Shown in pieces: positions 2,517 to 19,163 of a stretch of 64,000 nt of DNA. The DNA is taken from NCBI RefSeq assembly GCF_030684215.1, contig NZ_JAUXOV010000055.1, forward strand, positions 1-64,000, in the 5' to 3' direction. How positions within the stretch are numbered: the first letter of the stretch is position 1; every line of letters starts with the position of its first letter. This DNA comes from Pseudotabrizicola sp. (GTDB lineage: Bacteria > Pseudomonadota > Alphaproteobacteria > Rhodobacterales > Rhodobacteraceae). Position numbers and translations under genes: made by a program. The notes under the pieces are model-generated. The model was not told where the DNA came from. It saw only the letters and a program-made list of their open reading frames with translations, and did not search any database.

Positions 2517-4262
2517 TTACTGGCGATAGGCGGGCGTATTGGTTCCCCCAAGGAAGAACCGCGCCGGGTCGCGCTGGATCTGGCGGGTCAGTTGGTCAAG
2601 GTTGCCGATCAGATCGCGCATTTCGCGCGACAACCGGGTGAACTGCGGCAAGGCATTGGCGGAAAAGTCTCGGATCGGCTGGCCCGAAGCCGAAGCCGTG
2701 CGTGCCACTTCGTCAAAGGCTTGCCGGGCCGCCTCGCTTGCGGCTTTCAGATCAGCGGTCACTGCCGGAATATCAGCCGACACCTGCGCGATGGCCTGAT
2801 CCAGGGTGTCGATCGTGCGGCGCAGATCGGTGGTGATCGCGGCCACATCATTGTTGATCACCCGGTCGGCGCCGTCAAAGGTGCGCTCGGCCGCTGTCAG
2901 AGTGCGTTCGCCGACCACCAGCGCAGAGTTGATCGCACTCAGCGTTTCATTCGCGCGGCTGAACGTATCGGTGACGGTGGTGACGGCAGCACTTGCATCA
3001 TCCATCAGCCCGTCAACCTTGCCGGTAGCATCGGTCAGGCTTTGACCAACATCGGTAATCGTGCGGTTGGCCGTTTCGACGGCAGAGCGGATATCGGCCA
3101 CCAGCGCGGGCAGGTCGGCATTGGCTGCGTCCGAGATGGGTTTGATGGCCGCCCGTGCCTCGGCCACCAGTGCAGTGCCGTCGCCCATGACCAGTGCATC
3201 AAAGTTCGTGGTGGCCTTGTCGAATGTCTCTAACGTGGCTGTCAGATCAGCGATCATAGCATCGGTGGCGCGAATTGTTGTTTCAACCTGCGTCAGTCGC
3301 GCGGTCGCAGCTTCGCCTGTCAGACGGAATTCGGCCACCATCTCACGCGCTTGCGTCCCGATCTGGTCTATTTGCACGCGCAACTCGGCAATGCTGGCGC
3401 GGGCTTCTTCGGTCGTCTGCTTCAGGTTTTCGGTGATGTAGCGATCTGCCGAAGCCAGGGTGGTGGTTGCCTGATCCAACGTAGCGGTGCCGCTGGACAG
3501 CGCTGTGCGCGATTCAGTGACCAGCCCATCTACATTCCTGAGCGTGGTTTCTGCCGTCTCGAACAGGCTTTCTGCCCGCCCGGTCAGGCCCTCCAGCGTG
3601 ACGTTGAAAGCCGAGATATTGTCGGCAAAATCTGCCACTGCAGAAGCCACGACCGAAAAATCCTCAAGCGCCTTGGACAGCCCCGCCGAGGCTGTGTCCG
3701 CGTTTTCCAGAATGCTGCCCACGCGCTCGATATTTTCGGTGCTGGCAAGGTTAGACAGGTCTTGCATCACCCGCAGGGCTTGTTCGACCAATTGCGGCGC
3801 GTCCTCGGTCAGGCTTTGCAGCATCGACCGGCCGGCTTCAATCTGGGGGATGTCTAAAAGGCTGGTAGCGCGCAAAAGCGGGTCCGTCGCCTCACCGGGG
3901 CTGATCCCGACAAAGGACACGCCCGTGACACCTTGCGATTCAATGGTGGCAACCGAACTGGTGCGCACCGGAACATCAGTGCCGATTTCCAACCGGACCC
4001 GCACGGTGCCATCCCCATCCGGCGACAGGCGCACATCAACCACCTGACCTACGGGCAACCCGGCAAAGCGCACATCAGATGCGGTGGCCAACCCCGAGAC
4101 CGAGGTGAACTTCACCTCGTAATAGCTGAACTGACGGTCAAGCTGCACCTGCGCGAACCACAGGAAAAACCCAAGGATGCCCAAAAGCCCGGCCAGTGTG
4201 AAAGCTCCGATCAGGACGTAATTTGCTTTGGTCTCCACAGGATCAACTGCCTTTCTGCGCAT
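2517..4262 (-). CDS. MCE (MlaD-type) domain protein with long helical tail
   Basis: The protein has 581 residues. One membrane helix near residues 14-34 is followed by a single MCE domain (about residues 42-120, containing VRFAGLPVGQV and GVTGVSFVGI). A tail of some 440 residues, rich in Ala, Thr, Asp and Leu, follows and is predicted to be long helix or coiled coil. MCE proteins form hexameric rings that bind lipid for ABC lipid transporters. The 20-base overlap with the ATPase gene upstream indicates translational coupling. The length far exceeds classical MlaD (about 180 aa) and recalls the larger MCE proteins whose helical tails can form a tunnel across the periplasm. The exact substrate is unknown. 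Confidence 0.88.
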   Translation of the reverse strand: MRRKAVDPVETKANYVLIGAFTLAGLLGILGFFLWFAQVQLDRQFSYYEVKFTSVSGLATASDVRFAGLPVGQVVDVRLSPDGDGTVRVRLEIGTDVPVRTSSVATIESQGVTGVSFVGISPGEATDPLLRATSLLDIPQIEAGRSMLQSLTEDAPQLVEQALRVMQDLSNLASTENIERVGSILENADTASAGLSKALEDFSVVASAVADFADNISAFNVTLEGLTGRAESLFETAETTLRNVDGLVTESRTALSSGTATLDQATTTLASADRYITENLKQTTEEARASIAELRVQIDQIGTQAREMVAEFRLTGEAATARLTQVETTIRATDAMIADLTATLETFDKATTNFDALVMGDGTALVAEARAAIKPISDAANADLPALVADIRSAVETANRTITDVGQSLTDATGKVDGLMDDASAAVTTVTDTFSRANETLSAINSALVVGERTLTAAERTFDGADRVINNDVAAITTDLRRTIDTLDQAIAQVSADIPAVTADLKAASEAARQAFDEVARTASASGQPIRDFSANALPQFTRLSREMRDLIGNLDQLTRQIQRDPARFFLGGTNTPAYRQ

Positions 4263-5040
4263 CTTTGGCGGTCAGGGCCGCGCGGGCGCGTGGCCCGTGA
4301 AAATAATCGTGAACCCACGGGTGATCGACGCGCAACATCTCGTCCATGGTGCCTGTAACCAGAACTTTCTTCTCGGCCAGCACTGCAATGCGGTCGCAGA
4401 TCGCATGGAGCGTGTCCAGATCATGTGTGACCAAAAATACGGTCAGTCCCATGGTATCACTAAGCTGGCGGATCAGCGTGTCGAAATCGGCGGCCCCGAT
4501 CGGATCCAGTCCGGCGGTGGGTTCGTCAAGAAACACAATTTCGGGGTCCAGCGCCAAGGCCCGCGCCAGTCCTGCGCGCTTGCGCATGCCGCCCGACAGT
4601 TCCGACGGGTACTTGTCCCCCGCCAGATAGGGCAGGCCGGACATCGAGATTTTCAGATCGGCCATCGCACGGCGCAAGGCCGGGTCCAACCCCTCGACCG
4701 CCCGCATCGGCACTTCGACATTTTCGCGCACGTTCAGCGACGAGAACAGCGCGCCATCCTGAAACATCACGCCCCAGCGCCGTTCCAGTGCTATGCGCTC
4801 GGCCTCGCTGGCGGCGCGCACATCGGTGCCCAGCACCTCGATCTCTCCGGCCACAGGGCGCTGAAGGCCCGCGATGGACCGCAGCAGAACCGACTTTCCG
4901 GTGCCCGACCCGCCGACGACGCCCAGAATCTCGCCCCGGTAAACATCCAGATCAAGCCCGTCATGCACGACATGACTGCCGAACTGGTTGCGAATCCCAC
5001 GCAGACGGATCACCGGGGTAGGATCTGTCGCGACCGTCAT
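4243..5040 (-). CDS. ABC transporter ATP-binding protein, MlaF-like
   Basis: The 265-residue ATPase has Walker A GGSGTGKS (about residues 38-45), signature LSGGMRKRAGLARAL, Walker B VFLDEPTAGLD and an H-loop VTHDLDTL. The GGMRKR form of the signature is characteristic of MlaF/Ttg2A ATPases of lipid-transport systems. It overlaps the permease gene upstream by four bases (ATGA) and the MCE gene downstream by 20 bases, so it sits in the middle of the mla-like operon and presumably powers lipid movement from the cytoplasmic face. Confidence 0.9.
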   Translation of the reverse strand: MTVATDPTPVIRLRGIRNQFGSHVVHDGLDLDVYRGEILGVVGGSGTGKSVLLRSIAGLQRPVAGEIEVLGTDVRAASEAERIALERRWGVMFQDGALFSSLNVRENVEVPMRAVEGLDPALRRAMADLKISMSGLPYLAGDKYPSELSGGMRKRAGLARALALDPEIVFLDEPTAGLDPIGAADFDTLIRQLSDTMGLTVFLVTHDLDTLHAICDRIAVLAEKKVLVTGTMDEMLRVDHPWVHDYFHGPRARAALTAKDAQKGS

Positions 5041-6179
5041 ATGCCCACCTGCGCGAAGAAGATTGAAAACAGCGCATCAATGACGATCACCGAAAAAATC
5101 GCCGTCACCACCGCAGCCGAGGTTTTCTGGCCCAGCGACTCAGCATTGTTGCCAACCTGCATTCCAGCATGACAGCCCACCACACCGATAATGATGGCAA
5201 AGAACGGAGCCTTGATCATACCGACCATCAGATGCGACACATCCGTGCCCTCGATCAGCCGTGACTGGAACATGGCGGGGGATATGCCCAGTTCCACCCA
5301 ACTCATCAGCGCGCCGCCGAACAGGCCCGCCGCATTGGCGATCATCCCCAGAATGGGCAGCATCAACAGCAAGGCCAGCACGCGCGGCACGATCAGCGCC
5401 GCCGCCGGATCAATGCCCAGCGTGCGCATTGCGTCAATTTCTTCGCGCATCTTCATCGACCCGATTGCGGCGGTAAAGGCCGATGCCGTGCGACCTGCCA
5501 CGATAATGGCGGTCAGCAAGATGCCCAGTTCGCGCAGGATCGACACCGCGATCAGATCCACCACAAAGACCTCGGCCCCGAATTGCTTGAGCTGGGTAGA
5601 CCCTTGAAACGCAAGCACAATCCCGATCAGAAACGCCATCAGCGCTACAATCGGCACGGCCTTCAGCCCGACCTCGTGGCAGTGATGCACAAGGGCGGTC
5701 AGCCGGAATTCAGACGGATGCCGAAGCGCACGTGCAAGGCGCGACAGGAACAGCCCCAAAAAGCCCAGAAGCTGCATCAAAAATGAGACCGCCCCCATCA
5801 CCGAGCGGCCATATCCGTCCAGCCAAAGGGCCAGCGTCATGGGTTTTGCGGGGGGCGTATCGGGATTGGGCAGGGCATCGCGCACGGTCTGGATCAGGGC
5901 TGCGCTGTCCGCGCTTGCCCCGGTAATCTGCATGGAATGCCCGGCCGCTGTTGCCTTTGCGTCAGCCTCGGCAATCGCCCAAGCGGCGGCGGTATCCAGC
6001 CGTGTGACGCCTGACAGATCCACCAAAAACGGCCCCGCCGTTGCCGCCTGCATCAGTGCGCCATGCAGCGCCGTCAGATCTCCAAGCGAAAACCGCCCCG
6101 CAAGGTGCAGGCTGACCGCGCCATCGGCTTGGTCAGTGGTCACAGAGACTGGCGTTTCAAGGCGGTCCAAAACCTGCAT
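5037..6179 (-). CDS. MlaE-type ABC permease with N-terminal STAS domain
   Basis: The protein has 380 residues. The first ~100 form a STAS-like domain (LAGRFSLGDL, VDLSGVTRLDTAAAW) and the remainder an MlaE permease with five or six membrane helices (ALMAFLIGIVLAFQG, GRTASAFTAAIGSMK, EEIDAMRTLGIDP). In E. coli the STAS function is a separate protein, MlaB; here the two are fused, as in many alphaproteobacteria. This is the first gene of the operon. ATG at 6179 is the only good start because the STAS fold begins immediately after it. Confidence 0.9.
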   Translation of the reverse strand: MQVLDRLETPVSVTTDQADGAVSLHLAGRFSLGDLTALHGALMQAATAGPFLVDLSGVTRLDTAAAWAIAEADAKATAAGHSMQITGASADSAALIQTVRDALPNPDTPPAKPMTLALWLDGYGRSVMGAVSFLMQLLGFLGLFLSRLARALRHPSEFRLTALVHHCHEVGLKAVPIVALMAFLIGIVLAFQGSTQLKQFGAEVFVVDLIAVSILRELGILLTAIIVAGRTASAFTAAIGSMKMREEIDAMRTLGIDPAAALIVPRVLALLLMLPILGMIANAAGLFGGALMSWVELGISPAMFQSRLIEGTDVSHLMVGMIKAPFFAIIIGVVGCHAGMQVGNNAESLGQKTSAAVVTAIFSVIVIDALFSIFFAQVGI

Positions 6180-7072: not shown

Positions 7073-8125
7073 TCAGGGGCTGGCTTTGACGGGGCCACAA
7101 GACTGGCGCTCTATCAGCCGACAGGCAAGCTCGATCCGGCGCGCGGGCATATGGGCGCCAAAGCTCAAATCACGCAGCAGATCCACGGCAGCGGCCCCAA
7201 TATGGCGCATCGGCATTTCAATCGCGGTCAGGGGTGGCGTGAAAAACGCCCCCTGCGCCAGCCCGTCCATGCCAAGCACCGAAACATCCCCCGGTACAGA
7301 CAGGCCAAGCGATGCCAGCCCCTGCATGCAGCCCATGGCCAGACTATCACTGGCACAAAGCACGGCCGAGAAATCGACACCGTGGCGCTGGATCCTGTCC
7401 TTCACCGCTTGTGCCGCGCAATCGGGTAACCAGTCTGCCACATCAATCTGCAAGCCCGCATCCAGTGCCACGCCACCAAGCGTCATGCGATCCCGCCAAC
7501 CCTCAAAGCGCCGCTCAATCGTGCGGCGTCCCCGGCGACTAAGAAACAGAATGCGGCGGTGTCCCAGCCGCATCAGGTAATCGGTCGCCATCGTTGCAGC
7601 TGCCCGGTTTGACGGCGCGACCGAAGACAGTTGCATCAACGGATCATCCCCGTTGACCAGCACCACGGGCTTGCGCGAGGCGCGCGCGGCGGTCAGCATG
7701 TCTTCGTCATCCAGCGTCAGGAACAACAGGCCCGCTACACTTGGGTCATTCGCCACCTCGGCAAGTGTCTGACGTTCCTGTTCGGTCGAGGTGATCGGCT
7801 GGGTCATCACTGCTGCCCGCAAAAGTTTCGCCTGTTCTTCAATGCCTTGCATGACGTTCAGGGTGAACTGGCTGCGCGCGTAATCTTCCATCGCGGCGGG
7901 GCTGGCAAGGATCAGCAGCCGCTGGCCAGACAGGGTCGAGGGCAGGGCATAGCGAAACTCCTGCGCCTTGCGCTGGATCTTTTCCACCAGCTCTGGCCGC
8001 ACCCCCGGCGCGCCCGACAGCGCGCGTGACACGGTGGCGATGGACACGCCGCAAGCGGTTGCCAGATCGTCCAGTCTGATGCGGCGGCTTGGTTTGCCGC
8101 TTTTGCCCGGTGGCGTGCTGTGCAT
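7073..8125 (-). CDS. LacI-family transcriptional regulator of the uronate locus
   Basis: The N-terminal helix-turn-helix reads RLDDLATACGVSIATVSRAL (about residues 18-37 from the chosen ATG) and is followed by a periplasmic-binding-protein-like effector domain, about 350 residues in all. The ATG at 8125 has GGAAAG seven bases upstream and is preferred over a TTG at 8140. The gene is transcribed away from the GH105-kduI-transporter operon, and two TGCAAA-type inverted repeats lie in the shared 95-base gap, so it is very likely the local repressor. A sugar derived from uronic-acid oligosaccharides is the expected inducer by context only. Confidence 0.9.
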   Translation of the reverse strand: MHSTPPGKSGKPSRRIRLDDLATACGVSIATVSRALSGAPGVRPELVEKIQRKAQEFRYALPSTLSGQRLLILASPAAMEDYARSQFTLNVMQGIEEQAKLLRAAVMTQPITSTEQERQTLAEVANDPSVAGLLFLTLDDEDMLTAARASRKPVVLVNGDDPLMQLSSVAPSNRAAATMATDYLMRLGHRRILFLSRRGRRTIERRFEGWRDRMTLGGVALDAGLQIDVADWLPDCAAQAVKDRIQRHGVDFSAVLCASDSLAMGCMQGLASLGLSVPGDVSVLGMDGLAQGAFFTPPLTAIEMPMRHIGAAAVDLLRDLSFGAHMPARRIELACRLIERQSCGPVKASP

Positions 8126-8155
8126 GGGGTAACTTTCCAATGTGCCCGCCTATCA

Positions 8156-8190
8156 TGCAAAAAATTTTCATGTTGTGCAAATTTTTTGCA
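8156..8190. promoter_or_regulatory. Paired LacI-type operators in divergent promoter
   Basis: TGCAAA-TTT-TTTGCA (8176-8190) is a perfect 6-3-6 inverted repeat. TGCAAA-AAA-TTTTCA (8156-8170) is the same with one mismatch. Their centres are 20 bases apart, about two helical turns, so two dimers could bind on one face of the DNA. They sit between the LacI gene (start 8125) and the hydrolase gene (start 8220). They probably control both directions. Confidence 0.7.
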
Positions 8191-8219
8191 CTGCCATGAT
8201 CTGATTCAAGGACCAAAAC

Positions 8220-9338
8220 ATGGGCCAAGGGGGGAAGATGCGACCACAGGCTGATCAGATCAGGCGCAAGCTTGGGCAATTGGTGCGGGGTCTGACCGAC
8301 CTGCGCCACGATGGCCAGTTTGATGAGCCAAATCTTGACGGGACAGCAGGCGATTACATCAGCTTTGACAGCTGGGAATGGCCGCAGGGGGTTGGGCTTT
8401 ATGGCTTGGCGCAGCTGTGGCGGCGGCATCGTGACCCGGCTTTGCAGGCGTTGCTGGAGAGTTGGTATGCCCGCCATCTTGACCGCGGCCTGCCGGGGCT
8501 GAACATCAACACCACCGCGCCGATGCTGGCGTTGTCGCTGTTGTGGTCTGAAACCCGCGATCCACGCTGGCGGCCTGCGCTGGACGATTGGGCGGATCGT
8601 CTGATGGCTGATGCCCCGCGCACGGCCGAGGGCGGATTTCAGCATGATGTGTCCGACAAGGTAAACCCCGGCGAATTGTGGGATGACACGCTGTTCATGG
8701 CGGGGTTGTTTTTGGCCCGGTATGGCCATGCGGCGGGGCGGCCCGAACTGGTGGACGAAGCGATCCGCCAGTTTCTGGTGCATGCGCGCTATCTGTCGGA
8801 CCCGGACACCGGTTTGTGGTTCCATGGCTGGACCTTTGACGGGCGGCACAACTTCGCCCGTGCGCGCTGGGCGCGGGGCAATGCATGGATCACGGCCTGT
8901 ATTCTTGACCTGTTTGAGGTGCCGGACCTGCCGGGGTCGGTCCGGCTGTATCTGACCGAGGTGTTGCGCGCTCAGGTGCAGGCGTTGCTGCCGTTGCAGA
9001 CCAAAAACGGGGCATGGCGCACGCTGCTGGATGATCCGCAAAGCTATGAGGAGATCAGTGCTACGGCTGGTTTTGCTTACGGACTGCTGAAGGCGGCAGG
9101 GCAAGGTATCGGCGGGGCCGACTGGGCCGAGGCCGGGTGGCGCGCTGTGCAGGCGGTAATGGTGAACATCGACGATCAGGGCACAGTGCAAAACGTGTCT
9201 TACGGCACGCGGATGGGGCCGGATCTGCAGTTTTACCGCGACATCCCGTTGCAACCCACTGGCTATGGTCAGGCGCTGGCGATCCTGTGTCTGGTCGAGG
9301 CTGAGGGGCAATTGGCAACCGCAGGGGTGGCGGCATGA
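8220..9338 (+). CDS. Glycoside hydrolase family 105/88-type unsaturated uronyl hydrolase
   Basis: This 372-residue protein resembles (alpha/alpha)6-barrel YteR-type enzymes that remove the 4,5-unsaturated uronic acid left by polysaccharide lyases. Visible blocks are SWEWPQGVGLYGL (51-63), the catalytic Asp block WDDTLFMAG (D155/D156), HGWTF (202-206) and WARGNAW (217-223). There is no signal peptide, so it acts in the cytoplasm on imported oligosaccharides. A second ATG at 8238 behind AAGGGGGG is an equally good start. It overlaps kduI (ATGATG), whose substrate forms spontaneously from the released unsaturated uronate. Pectin (rhamnogalacturonan), ulvan or glycosaminoglycan fragments are all possible sources. 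Confidence 0.85.
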   Translation: MGQGGKMRPQADQIRRKLGQLVRGLTDLRHDGQFDEPNLDGTAGDYISFDSWEWPQGVGLYGLAQLWRRHRDPALQALLESWYARHLDRGLPGLNINTTAPMLALSLLWSETRDPRWRPALDDWADRLMADAPRTAEGGFQHDVSDKVNPGELWDDTLFMAGLFLARYGHAAGRPELVDEAIRQFLVHARYLSDPDTGLWFHGWTFDGRHNFARARWARGNAWITACILDLFEVPDLPGSVRLYLTEVLRAQVQALLPLQTKNGAWRTLLDDPQSYEEISATAGFAYGLLKAAGQGIGGADWAEAGWRAVQAVMVNIDDQGTVQNVSYGTRMGPDLQFYRDIPLQPTGYGQALAILCLVEAEGQLATAGVAA

Positions 9339-10168
9339 TGGACGTGCGCTATGGCGGCAACCCCGCCGATGTGATGACCGCCACCACCGACCGCCTGCGC
9401 GCCGATTATATGGTTGAGGGGGCCTTTGCGCCGGGGCAGTTGCGGCTGACCTATACCCATGTCGACCGTATGATCCTTGGCGGCGCGGTGCCCACAGATA
9501 CGCCGCTGGTGTTCGGCGATGGCGCAGACCTGGGGACCGAGTTCTTTTTTTCGGCACGCGAGGGCGGGCTTGCCAATCTGGGCGGGCCGGGGGTGGTGAC
9601 GGTGGATGGCAACGACTACGCCATGGGAAACCGTGATATCCTCTACATCGGACGCGGCGTGCAGCGGGTGGAGATGCGCAGCGATGACGCCACCCATCCG
9701 GCGTGGTTCTACCTCAACTCCGTACCGGCCGGGGCAAATCATCCGACTCGTCTGATCCGCCGCGATCAGGCAAAGCACATCCGCTTGGGCGAGCCGGCCA
9801 AGGCCAATGTGCGGTCCTTGGCAATGTATATCCACCCCGAAGTCTCGCCGTCTTGTCTGCTCTTGATGGGCATCACCGATCCTGCCCCCGGCAGCATGTG
9901 GAACACCATGCCGCCCCATCTGCACGAACGCCGGATGGAGGCTTATTGCTACTTTGACATGGGCGATGATGACCGGGTGATGCACTTCATGGGCCGCCCC
10001 GATCAGACCCGGCATCTGGTGATTGCCAATGGCGATATGGTGCTGTCGCCCGCGTGGTCCATCCATATGGGGGCGGGCACCGGGCCATATGCCTTTGTCT
10101 GGGGCATGACCGGTGAAAATCAGGCCTATACCGACTTTACCCCCGTTCCTGTCTCATCGCTTAGGTAA
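9335..10168 (+). CDS. kduI: 5-dehydro-4-deoxy-D-glucuronate isomerase
   Basis: The 277-residue protein matches KduI along its length (VDRMILGG, GTEFFFSAREGG, GRGVQRVEM, THPAWFYLNS). The metal ligands are in place: H195 and H197 in PHLHER, E202, and H244 in SIHMGAG. KduI isomerises 4-deoxy-L-threo-5-hexosulose uronate to 3-deoxy-D-glycero-2,5-hexodiulosonate. No kduD, kdgK or kdgA lies nearby, so the later steps must be encoded elsewhere. It is translationally coupled to the upstream hydrolase gene. Confidence 0.95.
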   Translation: MMDVRYGGNPADVMTATTDRLRADYMVEGAFAPGQLRLTYTHVDRMILGGAVPTDTPLVFGDGADLGTEFFFSAREGGLANLGGPGVVTVDGNDYAMGNRDILYIGRGVQRVEMRSDDATHPAWFYLNSVPAGANHPTRLIRRDQAKHIRLGEPAKANVRSLAMYIHPEVSPSCLLLMGITDPAPGSMWNTMPPHLHERRMEAYCYFDMGDDDRVMHFMGRPDQTRHLVIANGDMVLSPAWSIHMGAGTGPYAFVWGMTGENQAYTDFTPVPVSSLR

Positions 10169-10177
10169 TCATCTGAC

Positions 10178-12652
10178 ATGCAAGGCTTTCTGTCCCATCC
10201 CCTGACCCCCGGCGCGGCTGTTGGATATTGGCGTCTTGGTCCGACCGCAGAGGCGCGGTTCGACCTGCCTGACCTGCCAATGGCGGGAGAGATGGACCCG
10301 TTTTTTTTCCTGACCAAGGACAAGAACTTCATCCCGCACGAATACCCCTGCCGCACGCAGTTTGCGGCGGATCGTCGCGACCAGCGGCCACAGGTGGCCA
10401 ATGCGTTCGAGGCGGCGCGCAACTGGTTGCCCTTTGGATCGCCGCGCCTTGATCTGTCGGGGTTCTGGTTCCGGCCCACCCATCTTGCGACATGGGCGGA
10501 AACGGTGATCCGGGCGGCCGCTGCCGGGCCTGCGCGCCTGAGTCTGCGCACCTGCGGCGGGGCGGTGCTGTTCGTGAACGGCACGGAAGTGGGATGGATG
10601 GCCCCCTACAAGCGCAACGCGGAAACCGCCGCTGAATTCGACGTGACGCTGCACGCGGGCGACAACAGCGTGCAGGTGTTCTTTGACGATCTGGCCGAGC
10701 GTGATGCCCGCTATTACATCCAGCTTGACTGGCTGAACGGTCCGGAGGCCGAGGCGGGCATCCCCACCGCCTGCACCACTGACCACGCCCGCGCGATGGA
10801 AACGGCACTTGCGACGATGCACTTTGACCAACCGGCCTATACCGGGGGCGAGGTGGCGCTGGTTTTGCCGGTGCCGATGCCGATGGATGTCGATGTGGCA
10901 ATCCGGGTCGAGGGCGATTTCATGTCGCACCATCCCGCCGCCTTGCACCGGCATTTGCCCGCAGGGGCGGCACAGCTGGTCATCGACCGGGCTGAAAACC
11001 TGCCCGGCGATTTCCGGCACTTCATCCCCACGCTGACCGCAGACGGCTTTTCTGCCACCCGCACCTTTGGGGTCGAGGTCTGCGATCTGGCCGCACAAGG
11101 CACCGCCCCCGACACGCTGGCGGCGCGGATCGACGAGGCGCTGACATGGGTCGCCAACCGCGCCGAACCCGACACGGTGGCGGCACTTGCACGGCTGGCG
11201 CAGGGGCTTTCCGGCCCCGAGACCGAAGCGATGATCGACGCGACCCTCCCCGCGATCGAGGATTGCTGGGATTGCGCCGATTTCGCGCTGGTGCCGCTGC
11301 TCTGGGGGCGCACCCGGTTTGGGCATCTGCTGTCCGACCGGGTGCGCGACCGGATTGATTCTGCCATCCTTGGCTATCGCTACTGGATGGACGAGCCGGG
11401 CAATGACGTGCAGTGGTATTTCAGCGAAAACCACGCGCTGCTGTTCCACACCTCGGCCTATCTGGCGGGGCATCTGCTGCCCGAGGCCACTTTCCGCCGG
11501 TCAGGCCGCACGGGGGTGGAACAGTCTGCCACCGGGCGCGACCGCGTGCGGGCCTGGCTGGATCACTTCGAGGAATGGGAGATGGCCGAATTCAACTCAG
11601 CCCCCTATTTCCCAATTGATTTGAAAGGGTTAACCGCGCTTTACGCCCTCGCGCCCGATGCTGATATCCGGGCGCGCGCAGGCCGCGCCGTGGTGCGGTT
11701 GATCGAGGTGGTAGCCAATTCCGCGCATCATGGCGTGATCACGGCCGCCCAAGGGCGCAGCTATGAACACACACTGCGCGCGGGCCGCACGCTGGAATTG
11801 TCGGCCATCACCCGCATGTTGTGGGGCATGGGCCAGTTTGGTGCGCGCTTCCACTGCCTGCCGGGGCTGGCGCTGGCCTTGCGTGATCATGGATTGCAAC
11901 TGGATGCGGGTCTGGCCGCGCGCGCCAGTCTTGCGGCGGGCGAACAGGAATGGATGTTCGCGCAAGGTGAAGGCCGCTTTGCCGCGCTGTATCATGCAAA
12001 AACCCCGGATTGGGCCATGGGATCGACGGCGGCTTACCGCTGGTTTGACTGGGGCTATCAGGAAACCCTGCTGCATGCCCGCATGGGGCGGAACCCGGAT
12101 GCGCAGATCTGGATCAACCATCCGGGCGAGGTGATTCATTCCGGCTATGGCCGTCCGTCGTATTGGGGTGGGTCTGCCTCGGTGCCAAGGGTGCAGCAGT
12201 ATCGCGGTCTGGCGCTGGTGTGGTTTGATGGCCAGCCAGAACAGCCGGGCTTCACTCATTGCTGGTTTCCGGCCATTGCCTTTGATGACACCCGGTTGAT
12301 GGGTGATATGGCAGCGGCGGCCGTGGGCGAAGGCGCTATGGTGGTCCGCGCTTCCGGTGCGCTGGAAATGGTCGCCGATGGCCCCACAGCAGGCTGCGAA
12401 TTGCGGCTTGCAGGGTGCCATGGGTGGTGGATTGTGCGGATGGGTCACGCAGCAAAGGGGCTTGATGATTACGCCGCGCAATTCTCGCAACTTACTCCTG
12501 ACATTGGCGCAAATTCGCGTGCTACAGTCACGATTGATGATCCTGAATACGGCCCGGTTCACTTTCACGCTGATGGCCGGATCGAGGCGGAGGGGCGGAC
12601 AGTCAATCCAAAGGAATGGACGGTCGTGGGGCACAGAACCCTGCACCGCTAA
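10178..12652 (+). CDS. Large protein of unassigned function in uronate locus; possible new CAZyme
   Basis: The protein has 824 residues and no signal peptide. It begins 9 bases after kduI and precedes the sugar transporter genes. I cannot assign it to a named family. Visible layout: an N-terminal beta-rich, lectin-like part (about 1-270), a central helical part (about 310-600) with FSENHALLFHTSAYLAG and RSYEHTLRAGRT, then a C-terminal beta-rich part with WINHPGEVIHSGYGRPSYWG and GFTHCWFPAIAFDD. A toroid followed by a beta-sandwich recalls the overall plan of several polysaccharide lyases, and the ENHA stretch recalls their Asn/His active-site loops, but this is resemblance only. Context suggests cytoplasmic processing of uronate-containing oligosaccharides. 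It could be a lyase, a hydrolase or another enzyme. Confidence 0.75.
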   Translation: MQGFLSHPLTPGAAVGYWRLGPTAEARFDLPDLPMAGEMDPFFFLTKDKNFIPHEYPCRTQFAADRRDQRPQVANAFEAARNWLPFGSPRLDLSGFWFRPTHLATWAETVIRAAAAGPARLSLRTCGGAVLFVNGTEVGWMAPYKRNAETAAEFDVTLHAGDNSVQVFFDDLAERDARYYIQLDWLNGPEAEAGIPTACTTDHARAMETALATMHFDQPAYTGGEVALVLPVPMPMDVDVAIRVEGDFMSHHPAALHRHLPAGAAQLVIDRAENLPGDFRHFIPTLTADGFSATRTFGVEVCDLAAQGTAPDTLAARIDEALTWVANRAEPDTVAALARLAQGLSGPETEAMIDATLPAIEDCWDCADFALVPLLWGRTRFGHLLSDRVRDRIDSAILGYRYWMDEPGNDVQWYFSENHALLFHTSAYLAGHLLPEATFRRSGRTGVEQSATGRDRVRAWLDHFEEWEMAEFNSAPYFPIDLKGLTALYALAPDADIRARAGRAVVRLIEVVANSAHHGVITAAQGRSYEHTLRAGRTLELSAITRMLWGMGQFGARFHCLPGLALALRDHGLQLDAGLAARASLAAGEQEWMFAQGEGRFAALYHAKTPDWAMGSTAAYRWFDWGYQETLLHARMGRNPDAQIWINHPGEVIHSGYGRPSYWGGSASVPRVQQYRGLALVWFDGQPEQPGFTHCWFPAIAFDDTRLMGDMAAAAVGEGAMVVRASGALEMVADGPTAGCELRLAGCHGWWIVRMGHAAKGLDDYAAQFSQLTPDIGANSRATVTIDDPEYGPVHFHADGRIEAEGRTVNPKEWTVVGHRTLHR

Positions 12653-12700: not shown

Positions 12701-13963
12701 ATGAAAAATACAATGATCGCACTGGCACTCGGTGCCAGCCTGATGGGCACGACCGCGCTTGCCGGTGACGTGCGTCTGATGTGGTATTCTGACGGGGTCG
12801 AGGGCGAGGTGATGAAAGACCTTGTCGCGCGCTTCAACGCGGAAAACCCCGGCATCAACGTCATTCTGGACGAGGTGGCCTATAAGGTTGTGCAAGAACA
12901 GCTGCAAATTCAGCTTGAAGCAGGCTCTGGCCCCGATATCGCCCGCGTAACCAATATCAAGACATTGGCACCGCATTGGCTGGATCTGACGCCGTATCTG
13001 GCGGACCCGGACTATTGGCGCACCAACTTTGGCGCCCATGCAGATTGGATGCGGACAGATGGCAGTGATGCTATCACCGGGTTCATGACCCAGCTTACCT
13101 TGACAGGCGGTTTTGCCAACGCGACCCTGTTTGAACAGGCGGGCGTGGCGTTGCCGGGTGAGGGGGCCACTTGGGATGATTGGGTGAACGCTGCCGATCA
13201 GGTCGCGAAATCGCAAGGCACCGCCGCCGCCTTTGCCATCGACCGTTCGGGCCACCGGATCTCTGGGCCAAATGTGTCTTATGGCGCGGATTACATCGGT
13301 GCTGACGGCATGCCTGTGCCGGTGGATGACGGAACCAAAGCCTTTGCCGCCAAACTGGTTGGCTGGGTCGAGGGCGGCCAGATGCTGCGTGACACATGGG
13401 TTGCGGCATCGGGATCTACCTATCGTGCGGCGGCGGACGACTTCATCAACGCGGCGATCCCATTCTATTATTCCGGCAGTTGGCAAATCGCCAACCTGTC
13501 GACCAAGATCGGCGACGGGTTTGACTGGGTGGCCACCGGATCGCCTTGCGGCACCGCCGGATGTTCCGGTCTGGCCGGGGGGGCTGCGCTGGTCGCGGTG
13601 AAATACACCCAGAACGCCGAGGAAGTGGCAAAAGTCATGGAATATTTCGCGCGTGAAGATATCGTGAAAGAGTTCTCCGAGCGCACCCTGTTCTTGCCTG
13701 CCCATGCCGGCGTCGCGGCTGCTGGTGGCCTGAACTGGCAGACTGATGATGTGAATGTAGGCGCAGCGCTTGATGCCTATGTGGCGGCTGCGGGTGATAT
13801 CCTGCCTGCCGCTGGTGCGCTTCCTGCTTGGAAGTGGGCCTCACCGGTTTATGGCGCGCTGGTTAACCGGATCAGTCAGGTGATGGCGGGTGAGTTGACC
13901 TTGGACGACGCGTTTGCGCGCATCGATCAGGACATCGCTGAACAGGTCGCGGCGGCTCAGTAA
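12701..13963 (+). CDS. CUT1-type sugar ABC transporter substrate-binding protein
   Basis: The 420-residue protein starts with a Sec signal peptide ending near residue 21 (TTALAGD). It has the family-1 extracellular solute-binding fold: LMWYSDGVEGEVMKDLVARF, IQLEAGSGPDIARV, and a C-terminal pattern with SGSWQIANL and LPAHAGV. A strong AAGGAGGAG ribosome site precedes it. It captures the substrate in the periplasm and hands it to the two permeases that follow. Given GH105 and KduI next door, the ligand is probably an unsaturated uronate-containing oligosaccharide. Confidence 0.92.
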   Translation: MKNTMIALALGASLMGTTALAGDVRLMWYSDGVEGEVMKDLVARFNAENPGINVILDEVAYKVVQEQLQIQLEAGSGPDIARVTNIKTLAPHWLDLTPYLADPDYWRTNFGAHADWMRTDGSDAITGFMTQLTLTGGFANATLFEQAGVALPGEGATWDDWVNAADQVAKSQGTAAAFAIDRSGHRISGPNVSYGADYIGADGMPVPVDDGTKAFAAKLVGWVEGGQMLRDTWVAASGSTYRAAADDFINAAIPFYYSGSWQIANLSTKIGDGFDWVATGSPCGTAGCSGLAGGAALVAVKYTQNAEEVAKVMEYFAREDIVKEFSERTLFLPAHAGVAAAGGLNWQTDDVNVGAALDAYVAAAGDILPAAGALPAWKWASPVYGALVNRISQVMAGELTLDDAFARIDQDIAEQVAAAQ

Positions 13964-13966
13964 GCC

Positions 13967-14980
13967 ATGACCGGGGTAAAGGGAATGTTGGGGGCCGTTG
14001 TGACGGCCCCCCTGGGCTGGCTCGCCCGTCTGCTGGATGCGCCCTTGCGCCTTTGGCAACGAGTGGCGGGGCAGGGCGGTATGGTGGCGTTTTTCCTGTT
14101 GCCGAACATGGCGATTTTTACCATTTTCGTCTTGCTGCCGCTGGTCATCAACATCGCCTATTCGATGACGACCGGCGCGGCCCTTTTCCTTCCTGACCGC
14201 ACCTATGTTGGCATGGGCCAATATGAACGGCTGCTTCGCTGCACCGATTACACCAATCTGATGACTTGTCAGGAAGATCAGTTCTGGATTGCCCTGCGCA
14301 ACACCGGCACTTTTGTTGTGCTGCAAGTGTCGCTGCTGATCGTGGCCGCGACCATCACCGCGCTGATCCTGAACCGGGCGCTGCGCGCGCTCAGCTTCTG
14401 GCGGGCGGTTTTCTTTTTTCCGGTGCTGTTGTCGCCGGTTGTTGTGGGCTTGATCTGGCGCTGGATTCTGGACCGCAACGGCGTGTTGAATGCAGCCCTT
14501 GTCGGGGTGGGGATGGACCCCGTGAACTGGCTGCTGGAGCGCAACTATGCCTTTTCCGCCGCGATTGGCGTGACGATCTGGGCGCAATTGGGGTTCTTTG
14601 CCCTGATCCTGCTGGCCGGATTGCAAGCCATTCCGCGAGATCTGTATGAGGCAGCCGAGATGGACGGCACCAAGCCCGCCCGCGTGTTCTGGCGCATCAC
14701 GCTGCCGCTGTTGATGCCCAATATGCTGGTGGTGATCGTGCTGGCGCTGATCCGTGCGGTGCAGGTGTTTGACGAGGCCTATGTGCTTACGGGGGGCGGT
14801 CCGGGCACGGCCACGCTGTTCCTGACGCAGTATATCTACGAGGTCGGCTTTGCCTCGCTCTTGAAAAACCCCGGACTTGCAGCGGCGGCGTCTATCTTGA
14901 TGGGTGGGGTGCTGATCGTGCTGACCTTGCTGCAACTGGCGCTGGGCAAACGCAATGAGCGGAAAGGAAAGTTGAAATGA
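13967..14980 (+). CDS. Sugar ABC transporter permease (MalF/UgpA-like)
   Basis: The inner-membrane protein has 337 residues and about six helices. The coupling-loop EAA motif reads YEAAEMDGTKPARVFWRITL, as in CUT1 permeases. It begins 3 bases after the binding-protein gene and overlaps the second permease gene by 4 bases. A periplasmic loop with four cysteines or more hydrophilic residues (CTDYTNLMTCQED) is slightly longer than usual. It forms the channel together with the next gene product. Confidence 0.93.
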   Translation: MTGVKGMLGAVVTAPLGWLARLLDAPLRLWQRVAGQGGMVAFFLLPNMAIFTIFVLLPLVINIAYSMTTGAALFLPDRTYVGMGQYERLLRCTDYTNLMTCQEDQFWIALRNTGTFVVLQVSLLIVAATITALILNRALRALSFWRAVFFFPVLLSPVVVGLIWRWILDRNGVLNAALVGVGMDPVNWLLERNYAFSAAIGVTIWAQLGFFALILLAGLQAIPRDLYEAAEMDGTKPARVFWRITLPLLMPNMLVVIVLALIRAVQVFDEAYVLTGGGPGTATLFLTQYIYEVGFASLLKNPGLAAAASILMGGVLIVLTLLQLALGKRNERKGKLK

Positions 14981-16026
14981 GCCGCGCCATGGCCTTTCTG
15001 ACCCGCCGCAAAGGGGGCGATGCGTGGGACTGGACCGATGTGTTCACCTTCATCTGGCTGGGCTCTGCCGTGTTTATCATGTTCGGTCCGGCACTTTGGC
15101 TGGTGCTGTCCTCGTTCAAATCGCCCGCGCAATTGTCGGAGTTTCCGCCGACCTTGCTGCCGTATGAGGCGCAAACGGTTGCTGTTGAAGGCTACGACCG
15201 GCTGTTGCCACTGTTTTCGGTGTCCGATGACGATGGCACCCGGACCCTCGCCGAGGTGCGCCGGGTGGGGACCGTGGCGCAGATGGTGGACCCGGCGAAC
15301 CCTGCAGAGGTGCAGCGCATCAACATCGCCAACCGGACCCCGGTGCGCGAGGTGGGGTTTTCCTGGGGCAACTACCTTGACCCGTTCCTGCGCTTTGATT
15401 TCCTGAACTATACCAAGAACTCGATCTTCGTGACCGGGGTCGCCACGCTGATCACCCTGCTGACAAATTCGATGGCGGCCTTTGCGCTGTCAAAATACGA
15501 GTTCCGGGGACGTGGGTTTGTGGTCGTGCTGATCATTGCCACGCTGATGATCCCGCTATCGGTGATCCTGGTGCCCTTGTATTCCATCGTGGCGGGGGTG
15601 GGGCTGATCAACTCGCTTTGGGGGGTGATCCTGCCCACGGTTGCCACACCGACGGGGGTGTTCCTGTTGCGGCAATACATGCTGACCATCCCCGATGAAC
15701 TGCTGGAGGCGGCGCGGATGGATCATGCCAGCGAATGGCAGATCTATTGGCGGATCGTTCTGCCACTGACCGCGCCCGCGCTGGCGGTGCTGGCGATCTT
15801 CTCGGTGGTCTGGCGTTGGAATGATTTCCTGTGGCCGCTGATCGTGTTGTCGCGGCAAGAGGTCTATACGCTGCAAGTCGGCCTGAACGCCTATGCCGGA
15901 GAGCTGAATGTGCAGTGGCACTATCTGCTGGCGATGACCGTCATCACCATGATCCCGGTCGTTCTGGTCTTTATCTTCCTGCAACGGTTCATCACGGCGG
16001 GCATCGCCGGAACCGGGTTGAAATAG
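14977..16026 (+). CDS. Sugar ABC transporter permease (MalG/UgpE-like)
   Basis: The 349-residue protein has a first helix near 25-45, then a hydrophilic periplasmic insertion of about 90 residues (roughly 55-145), then five further helices. The EAA motif reads LLEAARMDHASEWQIYWRIV. The long insertion between helix 1 and helix 2 is typical of a subset of CUT1 MalG-type permeases. The start codon overlaps the previous stop (ATGA), so both permeases are made together. Confidence 0.93.
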   Translation: MSRAMAFLTRRKGGDAWDWTDVFTFIWLGSAVFIMFGPALWLVLSSFKSPAQLSEFPPTLLPYEAQTVAVEGYDRLLPLFSVSDDDGTRTLAEVRRVGTVAQMVDPANPAEVQRINIANRTPVREVGFSWGNYLDPFLRFDFLNYTKNSIFVTGVATLITLLTNSMAAFALSKYEFRGRGFVVVLIIATLMIPLSVILVPLYSIVAGVGLINSLWGVILPTVATPTGVFLLRQYMLTIPDELLEAARMDHASEWQIYWRIVLPLTAPALAVLAIFSVVWRWNDFLWPLIVLSRQEVYTLQVGLNAYAGELNVQWHYLLAMTVITMIPVVLVFIFLQRFITAGIAGTGLK

Positions 16027-16035
16027 GGGTTCCCG

Positions 16036-17091
16036 ATGGGACGCATACAGTTGCACGACATCCGCAAAAGTTTTGGCGCTATTGATGTGCTCAAAGGCAT
16101 CGACTTGACGATTGACGAAGGCGAACTTGTGGTCTTCGTCGGCCCATCCGGCTGCGGAAAATCCACCTTGCTGCGCATGATCGCCGGGTTGGACAAGCCC
16201 ACCTTTGGGCGGATCGAGATTGACGGCACCGATGTTACCGCGCGGTCGGCGGCGGATCGGGGGCTGGCGATGGTGTTCCAGTCGTATGCCTTGTATCCGC
16301 ATATGACAGTGCGCGCCAACATGGCCTTTGGCCTGCAAAACACCAACATGCCAAAGGCCGAGATTGACACCCGCATTGGCGAGGCCGCGCGGATGCTGGA
16401 GATTGAGCCGCTGCTGGAACGCCGCCCCGGCCAGTTGTCTGGCGGGCAGCGGCAGCGGGTGGCCATTGGCCGCGCCATTGTGCGCCGCCCGACTGCCTTC
16501 TTGCTGGACGAGCCGTTGTCAAATCTGGACGCCGAATTGCGCGTCAGCATGCGGGCAGAACTCTCGGCACTGCATGATCGCCTTGGGGCCACGATGATTC
16601 ACGTGACCCATGATCAGGTCGAGGCGATGACAATGGCCGACCGGATCGTTGTGTTGCGCGCCGGAAAGGTGGAACAGGTTGACACGCCGCTGAACCTGTT
16701 CAACCGCCCTGCTAATCTGTTCGTGGCGGGCTTCATCGGCGCGCCGGGCATGAACCTGTGGGCCGGGCAGGCCAAGGGCGTGTCGGTGCAACTGGACAGT
16801 GGGGCATTGCTGCCACTGCCGCTTGGCGTGCGCGTGCCCGATGGTCCGGTGACGCTCGGCATCCGTCCGCAACATCTGCGCCCCGAGGTCGGGGGACCAA
16901 TTCGGGCCGAGGTGCGGCTGATTGAGGCGCTTGGACCTGAAAGCGTTGTGCATGCCGATATGGGCGCGGGCGGTGGCTTGCTTGCGGTTCTGCCGGGCCA
17001 GCCCGACCTAGGGCGGGGGGCAGTGATCGAGTTGGGCTATGAGCCGCAATTCGTGCATGTCTTTGGGTCTGATGGTCAGCGGCTGGCTTAG
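16036..17091 (+). CDS. Sugar ABC transporter ATP-binding protein (UgpC/MsmK-like)
   Basis: The 351-residue ATPase has Walker [10 protein letters not shown] (K42), signature LSGGQRQRVAIGRA, Walker B FLLDEPLSNLD and H-loop VTHDQVEAM, then a C-terminal TOBE/OB regulatory domain (about 240-351). It ends the transporter operon 9 bases after the second permease. Its presence makes this a complete CUT1 importer. Its stop overlaps the stop of the convergent hydrolase gene. Confidence 0.94.
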   Translation: MGRIQLHDIRKSFGAIDVLKGIDLTIDEGELVVFVGPSGCGKSTLLRMIAGLDKPTFGRIEIDGTDVTARSAADRGLAMVFQSYALYPHMTVRANMAFGLQNTNMPKAEIDTRIGEAARMLEIEPLLERRPGQLSGGQRQRVAIGRAIVRRPTAFLLDEPLSNLDAELRVSMRAELSALHDRLGATMIHVTHDQVEAMTMADRIVVLRAGKVEQVDTPLNLFNRPANLFVAGFIGAPGMNLWAGQAKGVSVQLDSGALLPLPLGVRVPDGPVTLGIRPQHLRPEVGGPIRAEVRLIEALGPESVVHADMGAGGGLLAVLPGQPDLGRGAVIELGYEPQFVHVFGSDGQRLA

Positions 17092-17984
17092 GCCAGGGCG
17101 CTTGCCATGAAATCCAGCATCGCTCGGTGCATGGCAGGTGTTTCTAAATGGCCCGAGGCGGCTTCGCGGTGGATTGCCAGCCGCCCGCCGTGTTGGGCAT
17201 AGGCTGCGCGCACCTGATCCAGCGCCGGAGCTGTGGCGGCGGGGGGCGTCAGCGGGTCCAGATCGCCCAGACCGATAAACTGCGCACGCGGCGCGATCCG
17301 TCCCGCAATCTGCCCGTTTGACGCCCGCGCCAGCAGGCCCGGCACCGTCAGGTAAATCCCGTGCAGATCATGCTGGCCAAGCGCGATCAACTGTCGATAA
17401 TCGGCAAAGCAGCACTCATGTGCGACGGCGCGCAGGCGCGGCTCCAGCGCGCCTAGCCAATAGGCCAGCGTGGCCCCCATCGACAGGCCAAACACCCCGA
17501 TCCGGTCGGCGCGCACCTCGGGCCGGGCGGCAAGCCACTGCACTGCCGCGAGGTTTTCCGCCAGCATCTGCCCGGCCAACGACCGCCCCTCCCACAGCAG
17601 CGCCTTGGTCGTCGCAGTCTCGGATTGCGCGGCACGGCTGCCAAAACAGGGCATATCCAGACACAGCGAGGCGATCCCCCGTGCGGCCAATGCGCGCCCG
17701 GTCGGGGCGAACAGGGCAGGGCGGCCGTTGATCACCTCGGCCGCGCCGATGTCATAGCGGTTGCCATGGGCGTGGATCAGCAGCACCGCCGGAGTTGGCC
17801 CGGTGGTATCTTGCGGGCGGCACCAATAGGCGCGCGCCATCTGATCTGCGCCGATACTCAGCCGCAATTCTTCGGCACGGCAGGTTGCGTCCTCTACCGC
17901 CACCCCAAGGCTTTGCGCCGAGATCATCGGAACCGGATCGCACAACCCGAACGCTTGCCACAGGTCTTCGTTGTGCAATGTCAT
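17088..17984 (-). CDS. Alpha/beta hydrolase, dienelactone-hydrolase/acetyl-esterase-like
   Basis: The fold is visible from the oxyanion region LLIHAHGNRYD, the nucleophile elbow GLSMG (FGLSMGATLAYW), the acid GLGDLDPLTPP and the His in ASGHLETPAMH. I choose the ATG at 17984, which has GGGGGGGCG just upstream; an in-frame ATG at 18035 is possible. The product is about 298 residues and cytosolic. It is convergent with the uronate transporter operon and may deacetylate imported oligosaccharides, but this is guesswork from position. No regulator is evident. Confidence 0.78.
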   Translation of the reverse strand: MTLHNEDLWQAFGLCDPVPMISAQSLGVAVEDATCRAEELRLSIGADQMARAYWCRPQDTTGPTPAVLLIHAHGNRYDIGAAEVINGRPALFAPTGRALAARGIASLCLDMPCFGSRAAQSETATTKALLWEGRSLAGQMLAENLAAVQWLAARPEVRADRIGVFGLSMGATLAYWLGALEPRLRAVAHECCFADYRQLIALGQHDLHGIYLTVPGLLARASNGQIAGRIAPRAQFIGLGDLDPLTPPAATAPALDQVRAAYAQHGGRLAIHREAASGHLETPAMHRAMLDFMASALA

Positions 17985-18142
17985 ATCGCCCCCCCGGTCC
18001 ACTCCATTCGGGGCCAGAGTGGCGTTTGCCGCCATCCGGGTCCAGCGCAGAGTATCAGGCCGCGTTTTTTGGGGGCCGCTTGATGCCTTCTGGACGAAGC
18101 GAAATTACCCGACTATAATACTCAGGTTTAAGGAGATGTATC

Positions 18143-18692: not shown

Positions 18693-19163
18693 ATGGCGCA
18701 AGCTTCAGCCCAAATCAGCCCATCGGCCCGCGAAGCCGTGTGTGAGGCGCTCAATCAGGGCGTCGCAGAAACCGTGGTCGCCACGATGCTGGCGCAGAAT
18801 TTCCACTGGAACGTGACGGGCATGGGCTTTGGCCCGCTGCATGCGCTGTTTCAGACCATGTATGAAGATCATTTCACCGCCCAAGACGATCTGGCCGAGC
18901 GCATCAAGGCGCTGGACGGCCATGCCGAGGGCCAGCTTTCGGCCATGCTGAAGCGGTCAAAGATCGTCGAGCATGACGGCCACGCCAAGGCTGAAGCCAT
19001 GGTTGCGGCCTTGCTTGCAGCCCAGGAAACGCTGGCGGCCACACTGGCCGGTATTGCAGCGGTGGCGGAAGAAAACGGCGATCTGCTGACGCAGGATCTG
19101 GCGATTGCGCGGGGCCAAACCCACGAGAAATTCGCCTGGATGCTGCGCGCGCATCTGCGCTGA
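18693..19163 (+). CDS. dps: Dps-family ferritin-like DNA protection protein
   Basis: The 156-residue protein forms a four-helix bundle of the Dps type. Ferroxidase ligands are visible: H38 (NFHWN), H50 (GPLH), D65 and E69 (QDDLAER). The Asp usually four residues after the second His is Gln54 here. Dps dodecamers oxidise and store iron and protect DNA from peroxide. An AAAGGAGG ribosome site precedes the ATG. The ICE box upstream and the heme-uptake island downstream place it in an iron-responsive region. Confidence 0.92.
   Translation: MAQASAQISPSAREAVCEALNQGVAETVVATMLAQNFHWNVTGMGFGPLHALFQTMYEDHFTAQDDLAERIKALDGHAEGQLSAMLKRSKIVEHDGHAKAEAMVAALLAAQETLAATLAGIAAVAEENGDLLTQDLAIARGQTHEKFAWMLRAHLR

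Follow-up and report, generated by a model that had tools for sequence, protein, structure and literature searches.

The stretch analysed here (the window, 64,000 nucleotides of contig NZ_JAUXOV010000055.1 from Pseudotabrizicola sp.) carried a tight uronide operon, in which the gene for an 824-residue protein was located between kduI and a complete CUT1 importer. This protein probably (rough probability 0.6) acts in the cytoplasm by beta-elimination and, as judged from structure models, belongs to the toroid-plus-beta-sandwich polysaccharide lyase (PL) class, a sugar-leaving exo-lyase being the favoured form. The reading was carried by the predicted fold class, the residue conservation and the operon, all of which were computed. 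Within this known lyase class, the protein appeared from sequence comparison to represent a new family, lying outside Pfam and NCBIfam cut-offs (PL27 was compared by description).

Predicted fold and conserved residues

The open reading frame (ORF) of the 824-residue protein was real: it had an ATG start and no internal stop, its translation contained the motifs FSENHALLFH (residues 415–424) and WINHPGEVIHSGYG (residues 645–658), and it was placed beyond chance by 60 homologues with a mean column identity of 72% together with 258 stretches encoding a relative (see below). A search of its own genome gave a single full-length match. No signal peptide was apparent by a rough hydropathy measure (best 12-residue value near the N-terminus: 0.82, versus 1.96 for the substrate-binding protein of the importer; its roughness shows in the value of 1.83 for the LacI regulator); because the 824-residue protein lacked a hydrophobic N-terminus and the substrate-binding protein had one, the former would be expected to act in the cytoplasm, with imported oligosaccharides as its targets. 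The original prediction, made from the letters of the window alone, had already named this ORF and its two motifs, the site between kduI and the importer, a cytoplasmic location, and a beta-rich start, helical middle and beta-rich end; all of these were borne out, the site by neighbour gene assignments, the location by the above hydropathy values, and the layout by the full-length model and, for residues 300–824, also by the better model (see below).

Two models were built: (i) a full-length model from a 10-row alignment (pLDDT, the predicted local distance difference test score, 74.8), which was not relied on for the core, and (ii) an AlphaFold2 model of residues 300–824 from the window protein plus 59 relatives (pLDDT 87.9; predicted template modelling score, pTM, 0.90). 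Foldseek with the full-length model gave mostly enzymes of glycoside hydrolase (GH) family GH2, plus the PL15 lyase Atu3025; the GH2 matches most likely arose via the N-terminal region, part of which probably resembles, in the model, the sugar-binding domain of GH2 enzymes. Foldseek with the core model gave, at E<=0.001, 23 PDB chains, namely one dermatan sulfate epimerase and 22 lyases: heparinases II and III, HepC, Alg17c, Atu3025, Dp0100, GAGases II and VII, a chondroitinase (9o3q), BtPL33, and chondroitin AC and ABC lyases. An alpha/alpha toroid followed by an antiparallel beta domain was thus found in the predicted structure, as in the PL8/12/15/17/21/33/35/39 class; a two-domain layout of this kind is common to PL8, 12, 15, 17, 21, 23, 35 and 39 (PMC12269599; PMC12088678). 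A haloarchaeal relative (Haladaptatus, L106:9800-11785, ~27% identity) was shorter, with most of the N-terminal region absent, and therefore the toroid and beta domain were taken as the core.

Conservation was tallied at 22 positions in 119 distinct members (101 from the first branch and 18 others; for a second branch, see below). E417, N418, H419, E471, Y477, R527, Y529, Q628, W663 and H694, among others, never varied (119/119), and the invariance of N418, H419 and Y477 extended to the haloarchaeal relative; H648, located in an NHPGE motif, was placed after a beta strand in the core model. Table 4 of PMC12088678 lists, among others, the catalytic sets Asn186/His187, Tyr239 and His405 for PL39, Asn336/His337, Tyr390 and His555 for PL15 (6LJA), and Asn240, Tyr294 and His424 for PL12. 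The spacings computed from this table were 53–63 for Asn (or toroid His) to Tyr and 130–166 for Tyr to beta-domain His, and the N418–Y477 spacing of 59 fell inside the former range; because the residues were picked post hoc among many invariant ones, the spacing was counted as support for the fold result only.

Sequence-family searches gave no explaining match for the 824-residue protein in Pfam, NCBIfam and PHROGs, and 16 diverse members gave no family above cut-off in Pfam and NCBIfam; PA14 was the only Pfam match below E 0.02 among these 16 (2/16, best E 4.9e-4), and nothing at E<=1 was found in them for Hepar_II_III_C (PF07940), PL26-type models or the DUF2264-type model of GH154 dehydratases. 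A PDB sequence search with one protein and two profiles gave an unconvincing best E of 0.079, and phmmer and hmmsearch found no similarity between PL15 Atu3025 and the protein or its profiles. Among viral contigs, 39 pattern stretches contained no relative of the protein, and no paper recognised as describing it was found in a literature search with few subscription journals covered. The suggestion of a possibly unlisted family agreed with the lack of a characterised family matching by sequence in Pfam, NCBIfam, PHROGs and PDB; the same prediction had proposed checking for a toroid-plus-beta-sandwich lyase fold with conserved His/Tyr/Asn, and the predicted fold was of that class, while the sequences of the 119 members conserved one Asn-His pair as well as Tyr and His residues.

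Operon organization and distribution

The operon was tightly packed (Table 1): the genes for GH105 and KduI overlapped by 4 bases, and 9 bases separated the end of the KduI gene from the 824-residue ORF. The GH105 was the single PF07470 match in the 4.4-Mb host genome. The 79-base gap between the LacI and GH105 genes (8141–8219) contained two LacI-operator-like near-palindromes starting at 8154 and 8174; such palindromes were present in 48/74 related loci versus 39/74 shuffled controls, and no operator was claimed.

Table 1. Genes of the operon region and features of the 824-residue protein (window coordinates)
Feature	Position	Strand	Basis
LacI-family regulator	7073–8140	-	NCBIfam LacI-type matches, best E 3.5e-34, all below cut-offs; divergent from operon
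GH105/GH88 unsaturated uronyl hydrolase	8220–9338	+	PF07470 E 9.2e-85; PDB 3qwt/3pmm; no signal peptide apparent
KduI, 5-dehydro-4-deoxy-D-glucuronate isomerase	9335–10168	+	NCBIfam NF002091 E 2.7e-107, above cut-off
824-residue protein, proposed intracellular uronide beta-eliminating enzyme	10178–12652	+	ORF, conservation, predicted fold
N-terminal beta-rich region, residues 1–310	10178–11107	+	Full-length model, Foldseek; PA14 in 2/16 members
Alpha/alpha toroid, about residues 313–583	11114–11926	+	AlphaFold2 model, Foldseek
E417-N418-H419, proposed carboxylate neutraliser/base	11426–11434	+	119/119; starts toroid helix 417–433
Y477, proposed general acid/base	11606–11608	+	119/119; just before helix 478–491
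R527-S528-Y529, conserved toroid residues	11756–11764	+	R527, Y529 in 119/119
C-terminal antiparallel beta domain, about residues 588–824	11939–12649	+	AlphaFold2 model, Foldseek
H648 (NHPGE motif), candidate beta-domain catalytic His	12119–12121	+	His 114/119, Gln 4, Tyr 1
H694, alternative beta-domain catalytic His	12257–12259	+	119/119
CUT1 substrate-binding protein	12701–13963	+	PF01547; hydrophobic N-terminus
Importer permease 1	13967–14980	+	PF00528
Importer permease 2	14977–16026	+	PF00528
Importer ATPase, MalK type	16036–17091	+	PF00005, TOBE_2, OB_MalK
Alpha/beta-hydrolase (esterase-like), optional partner	17088–18035	-	PF01738

The esterase-like gene, located past the importer on the opposite strand, might strip esters from the oligosaccharide. 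The operon was flanked by MlaD- and MlaE-type lipid transport genes upstream (2517–6179, minus strand) and by a ferritin-like gene downstream (18693–19163).

A scan of GTDB representatives yielded the above 258 stretches. Only the best 80 were carried forward; by their titles, all these 80 belonged to Rhodobacterales, Rhizobiales or unplaced proteobacterial bins. Homologues with at least 45% identity to the window proteins were counted in the 80 kept loci: GH105 in 79, KduI in 77, LacI in 74, the substrate-binding protein in 80, each permease in 78, the ATPase in 77, and the esterase-like gene in 34; the permeases or ATPases absent from L017, L053 and L055 coincided with contig ends. All the 77 kept loci having both GH105 and KduI showed the order GH105–KduI–protein on one strand. 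Another 15 loci (L105 and L165–L178) comprised 13 from the second branch plus L168 and L169 from the first; each carried a GH105/GH88 gene, which directly adjoined the protein gene in 13 of them (the exceptions being L169 and L178). Among annotated loci, GH105/GH88 adjoined the protein gene in L103, L104 and L107 and lay a few genes off in L108. GH105 proteins from the two branches (one each) had the same top PDB entries, 3qwt and 3pmm. Scans past the operon found a luciferase-like monooxygenase, a Gfo/Idh/MocA oxidoreductase, GntR, an aldo/keto reductase and others, a mixed set with no substrate pointer.

The family is spread over several orders, though patchily. Plasmid records gave 200 further matches, among them the shorter Haladaptatus relative and a second branch (~30% identity) with members from Rhizobium, Sinorhizobium, Thioclava, Photobacterium and Catenovulum. 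The second-branch profile, the matches of which include some first-branch members, hit 4/197 genomes of one gammaproteobacterial order and 20/151 genomes of one rhizobial family. Relatives were present in 10/292 genomes of the host order and in 9/398 of a host-phylum sample (own genome included in both), and the family was regarded as patchy because a class-wide sample matched the own genome alone among 385. Around the Haladaptatus relative (L106), Gfo/Idh/MocA oxidoreductases, sugar isomerases and a nearby heparinase II/III-family gene were observed. Two same-genus relatives and one same-family relative of the host (L129, L130 and L131) carried an Atu3025-like protein, and that of L129 matched PL15 3a0o along its length.

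Proposed reaction, alternatives and substrate

The original prediction, a lyase or hydrolase that would work inside the cell ahead of GH105, was supported by the predicted fold and the conserved residues. The chemistry, residue roles, exo mode and substrate that we infer would be as follows: (i) the CUT1 importer would bring in a uronic-acid-containing oligosaccharide, most likely of the rhamnogalacturonan type; (ii) N418/H419 would neutralise the carboxylate of the uronic acid; (iii) Y477, together with H648 or H694, would take the C5 proton and expel the C4 group, so that a Delta-4,5-unsaturated uronyl end remains, with exo action and a sugar as the leaving group being favoured; and (iv) GH105 would hydrolyse the Delta-4,5-uronyl residue, and KduI would isomerise the freed 5-keto-4-deoxyuronate. 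No match to PF18370 (PL11-type), PF00544 or PF14583 was found in the host genome, other lyase families not having been searched; with these three families absent, the unsaturated substrate would therefore come from the 824-residue protein, from a lyase of some other family, or from other organisms.

Several observations weigh against the exo-lyase reading. At the level of fold and sequence, the query-normalised whole-chain template modelling (TM) scores were 0.23–0.45 with a root-mean-square deviation (rmsd) of 10–16 A, and the match was therefore one of topology, not of close superposition; hhalign gave a probability of 0.5% against PL15 (a thin profile with 3 PL15 homologues) and of 0.1% against nine cellular Hepar_II_III proteins. 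At the level of residues, H648 was replaced in 5/119 members (Gln in four, Tyr in one) and may not be the base, and because of these five exceptions H694 was kept as the alternative; the Y477–H648 spacing of 171 was just over the range from Table 4 of PMC12088678, and the spacing match is weak alone, having been chosen post hoc from ~44 invariant columns. At the level of genomes, the host genome contained one Hepar_II_III_C protein (G000:C51:41649-42401, L126), a family found in 37/41 genomes searched; the GH105 of the window matched NCBIfam NF051900 'BglB' above cut-off, and NCBIfam names its clade 'beta-galactosidase BglB'; L022 had the protein and importer without detected GH105, KduI or LacI (this locus may use another partner); the annotated Haladaptatus stretch had no GH88/GH105 gene; rhamnose genes were labelled in 0/15 further loci (a count that leaves out the 80 kept first-branch loci); and the substrate hints were thin, most of them coming from second-branch loci.

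The main rival, held to be distinctly less probable than beta-elimination with a sugar leaving group, is an oligosaccharide dehydratase, by which water would leave a saturated non-reducing-end uronate to give the Delta-4,5 form for GH105. There are precedents: P29_PDnc is paired with GH105/GH88 in ulvan degradation (PMC8511951), and BcGDH/GH154 likewise feeds GH105/GH88-type enzymes and has a proposed Tyr/Arg/Tyr set loosely like Y477/R527/Y529 (PMC12269599); in a host without PF18370, PF00544 and PF14583 lyases, moreover, a step of this kind would be required for any saturated oligosaccharides that are imported. However, the Tyr/Arg/Tyr resemblance was judged by eye only, the strong fold matches were glycan-cleaving lyases plus the epimerase, and none of the 50 fold matches listed was recognised as a GH154 entry.

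A glycoside hydrolase or phosphorylase, composed of an (alpha/alpha) barrel and an N-terminal beta domain, would account for the many GH2 matches to the full-length model (probably via the N-terminal region) and for GH127, GH146 and GH81 far down the core-model Foldseek list, but for the core the first hydrolase appeared at E ~7e-3 versus 8e-8 for the best lyase, making this reading improbable. Still harder to sustain is a uronyl C5-epimerase acting on imported oligosaccharides in the manner of dermatan sulfate epimerase, an enzyme with the same fold and proton-abstraction chemistry: dermatan sulfate epimerase 1 (6hzn) ranked third in the Foldseek list, but the conserved neighbours GH105 and KduI act on unsaturated uronides and their products, and epimerisation by itself yields no GH105 substrate. 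A lyase-derived, non-catalytic binding protein, in favour of which the replacements of H648 in 5/119 members can be cited, is the least credible reading, given that six other polar candidates (E417, N418, H419, Y477, R527 and Y529) never vary in the 119 members.

As for the substrate, rhamnogalacturonan-type oligosaccharides stand at about even odds, followed by Rha-GlcA-capped arabinogalactan oligosaccharides as the next candidate. The hints were as follows: the Thioclava locus L107 adjoined a rhamnose operon, kduI and kduD; the host genome carried the rhamnose mutarotase gene rhaM; and GH28 was present in 7/16 second-branch loci, all rhizobial (L103 and L170–L175), and absent from the second-branch loci L104, L105, L107, L165–L167 and L176–L178. 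A further hint was the rhi cluster predicted in the literature (see below). The broader proposal, that a widespread, unlisted intracellular family with a lyase fold makes the GH105 substrate from imported saturated oligosaccharides, whether as exo-lyase or dehydratase, is tentative, with the odds somewhat against it.

If true, the proposed function would give an unnamed gene of many rhizobia and rhodobacteria a testable job, explain the self-supply of unsaturated uronides in a cell with GH105 and without PF18370/PF00544/PF14583 lyases, and extend the known lyases (or dehydratases) by a family with an unusual catalytic motif; pectic or arabinogalactan uronides could then be used without a secreted lyase of the cell's own, and the enzyme would be a tool to cut plant-wall oligosaccharides.

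Comparison with known systems

The PL15 exo-alginate lyase Atu3025 (3a0o/3afl) has a toroid plus an antiparallel beta-sheet, as does the predicted core, and is exolytic, with a His and a Tyr on the toroid and a His on the beta domain (PMC12088678; PMC8618178); unlike it, the 824-residue protein shows no sequence or profile similarity to PL15, has 'NHPGE' in place of 'SHSHGD', possesses an extra N-terminal beta region, and lies in another operon. PL17 Alg17c, PL12 heparinase III, PL35 GAGases, PL33 and PL39 were top core Foldseek matches, and Asn(-His)/Tyr/His sets are given in Table 4 of PMC12088678 for PL17, PL12, PL35 and PL39, not for PL33. These five families differed from the protein in giving no Pfam/PDB sequence match and a poor whole-chain superposition.

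PL26 is the exo-rhamnogalacturonan lyase family (PcRGLX; YetA-like), which cleaves rhamnogalacturonan oligosaccharides in exo mode, a job resembling the role proposed for the 824-residue protein; membership in PL26 was unsupported, with no PL26-type Pfam match and no PL26 entry recognised among the 50 fold matches listed. The L-rhamnose-alpha-1,4-D-glucuronate lyases PL27 and PL42 would supply the same kind of GH105; PL27 is described as having an N-terminal beta-sandwich plus an (alpha/alpha)6 barrel, and PL42 has been compared with beta-propeller relatives (PMC8377490). Membership of the protein in PL27 (compared by description) or PL42 was likewise unsupported.

The dehydratases P29_PDnc and GH154/BcGDH resemble the proposed enzyme in generating a Delta-4,5 end for GH105/GH88. 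In P29_PDnc, Asp/Glu/Arg/Lys/Tyr residues were probed, and Y306F was still active (PMC8511951); P29_PDnc was compared by description, and the 824-residue family differed from GH154 in having no GH154-type Pfam match.

At the level of the operon, Rodionova et al. (2013, PMC3870299) predicted a LacI-controlled rhamnogalacturonide cluster, rhi, for members of the Rhizobiales and for Erwinia. It shares with the operon of the window a LacI regulator, an ATP-binding cassette (ABC) importer and glycan enzymes, and the two may be the same operon.

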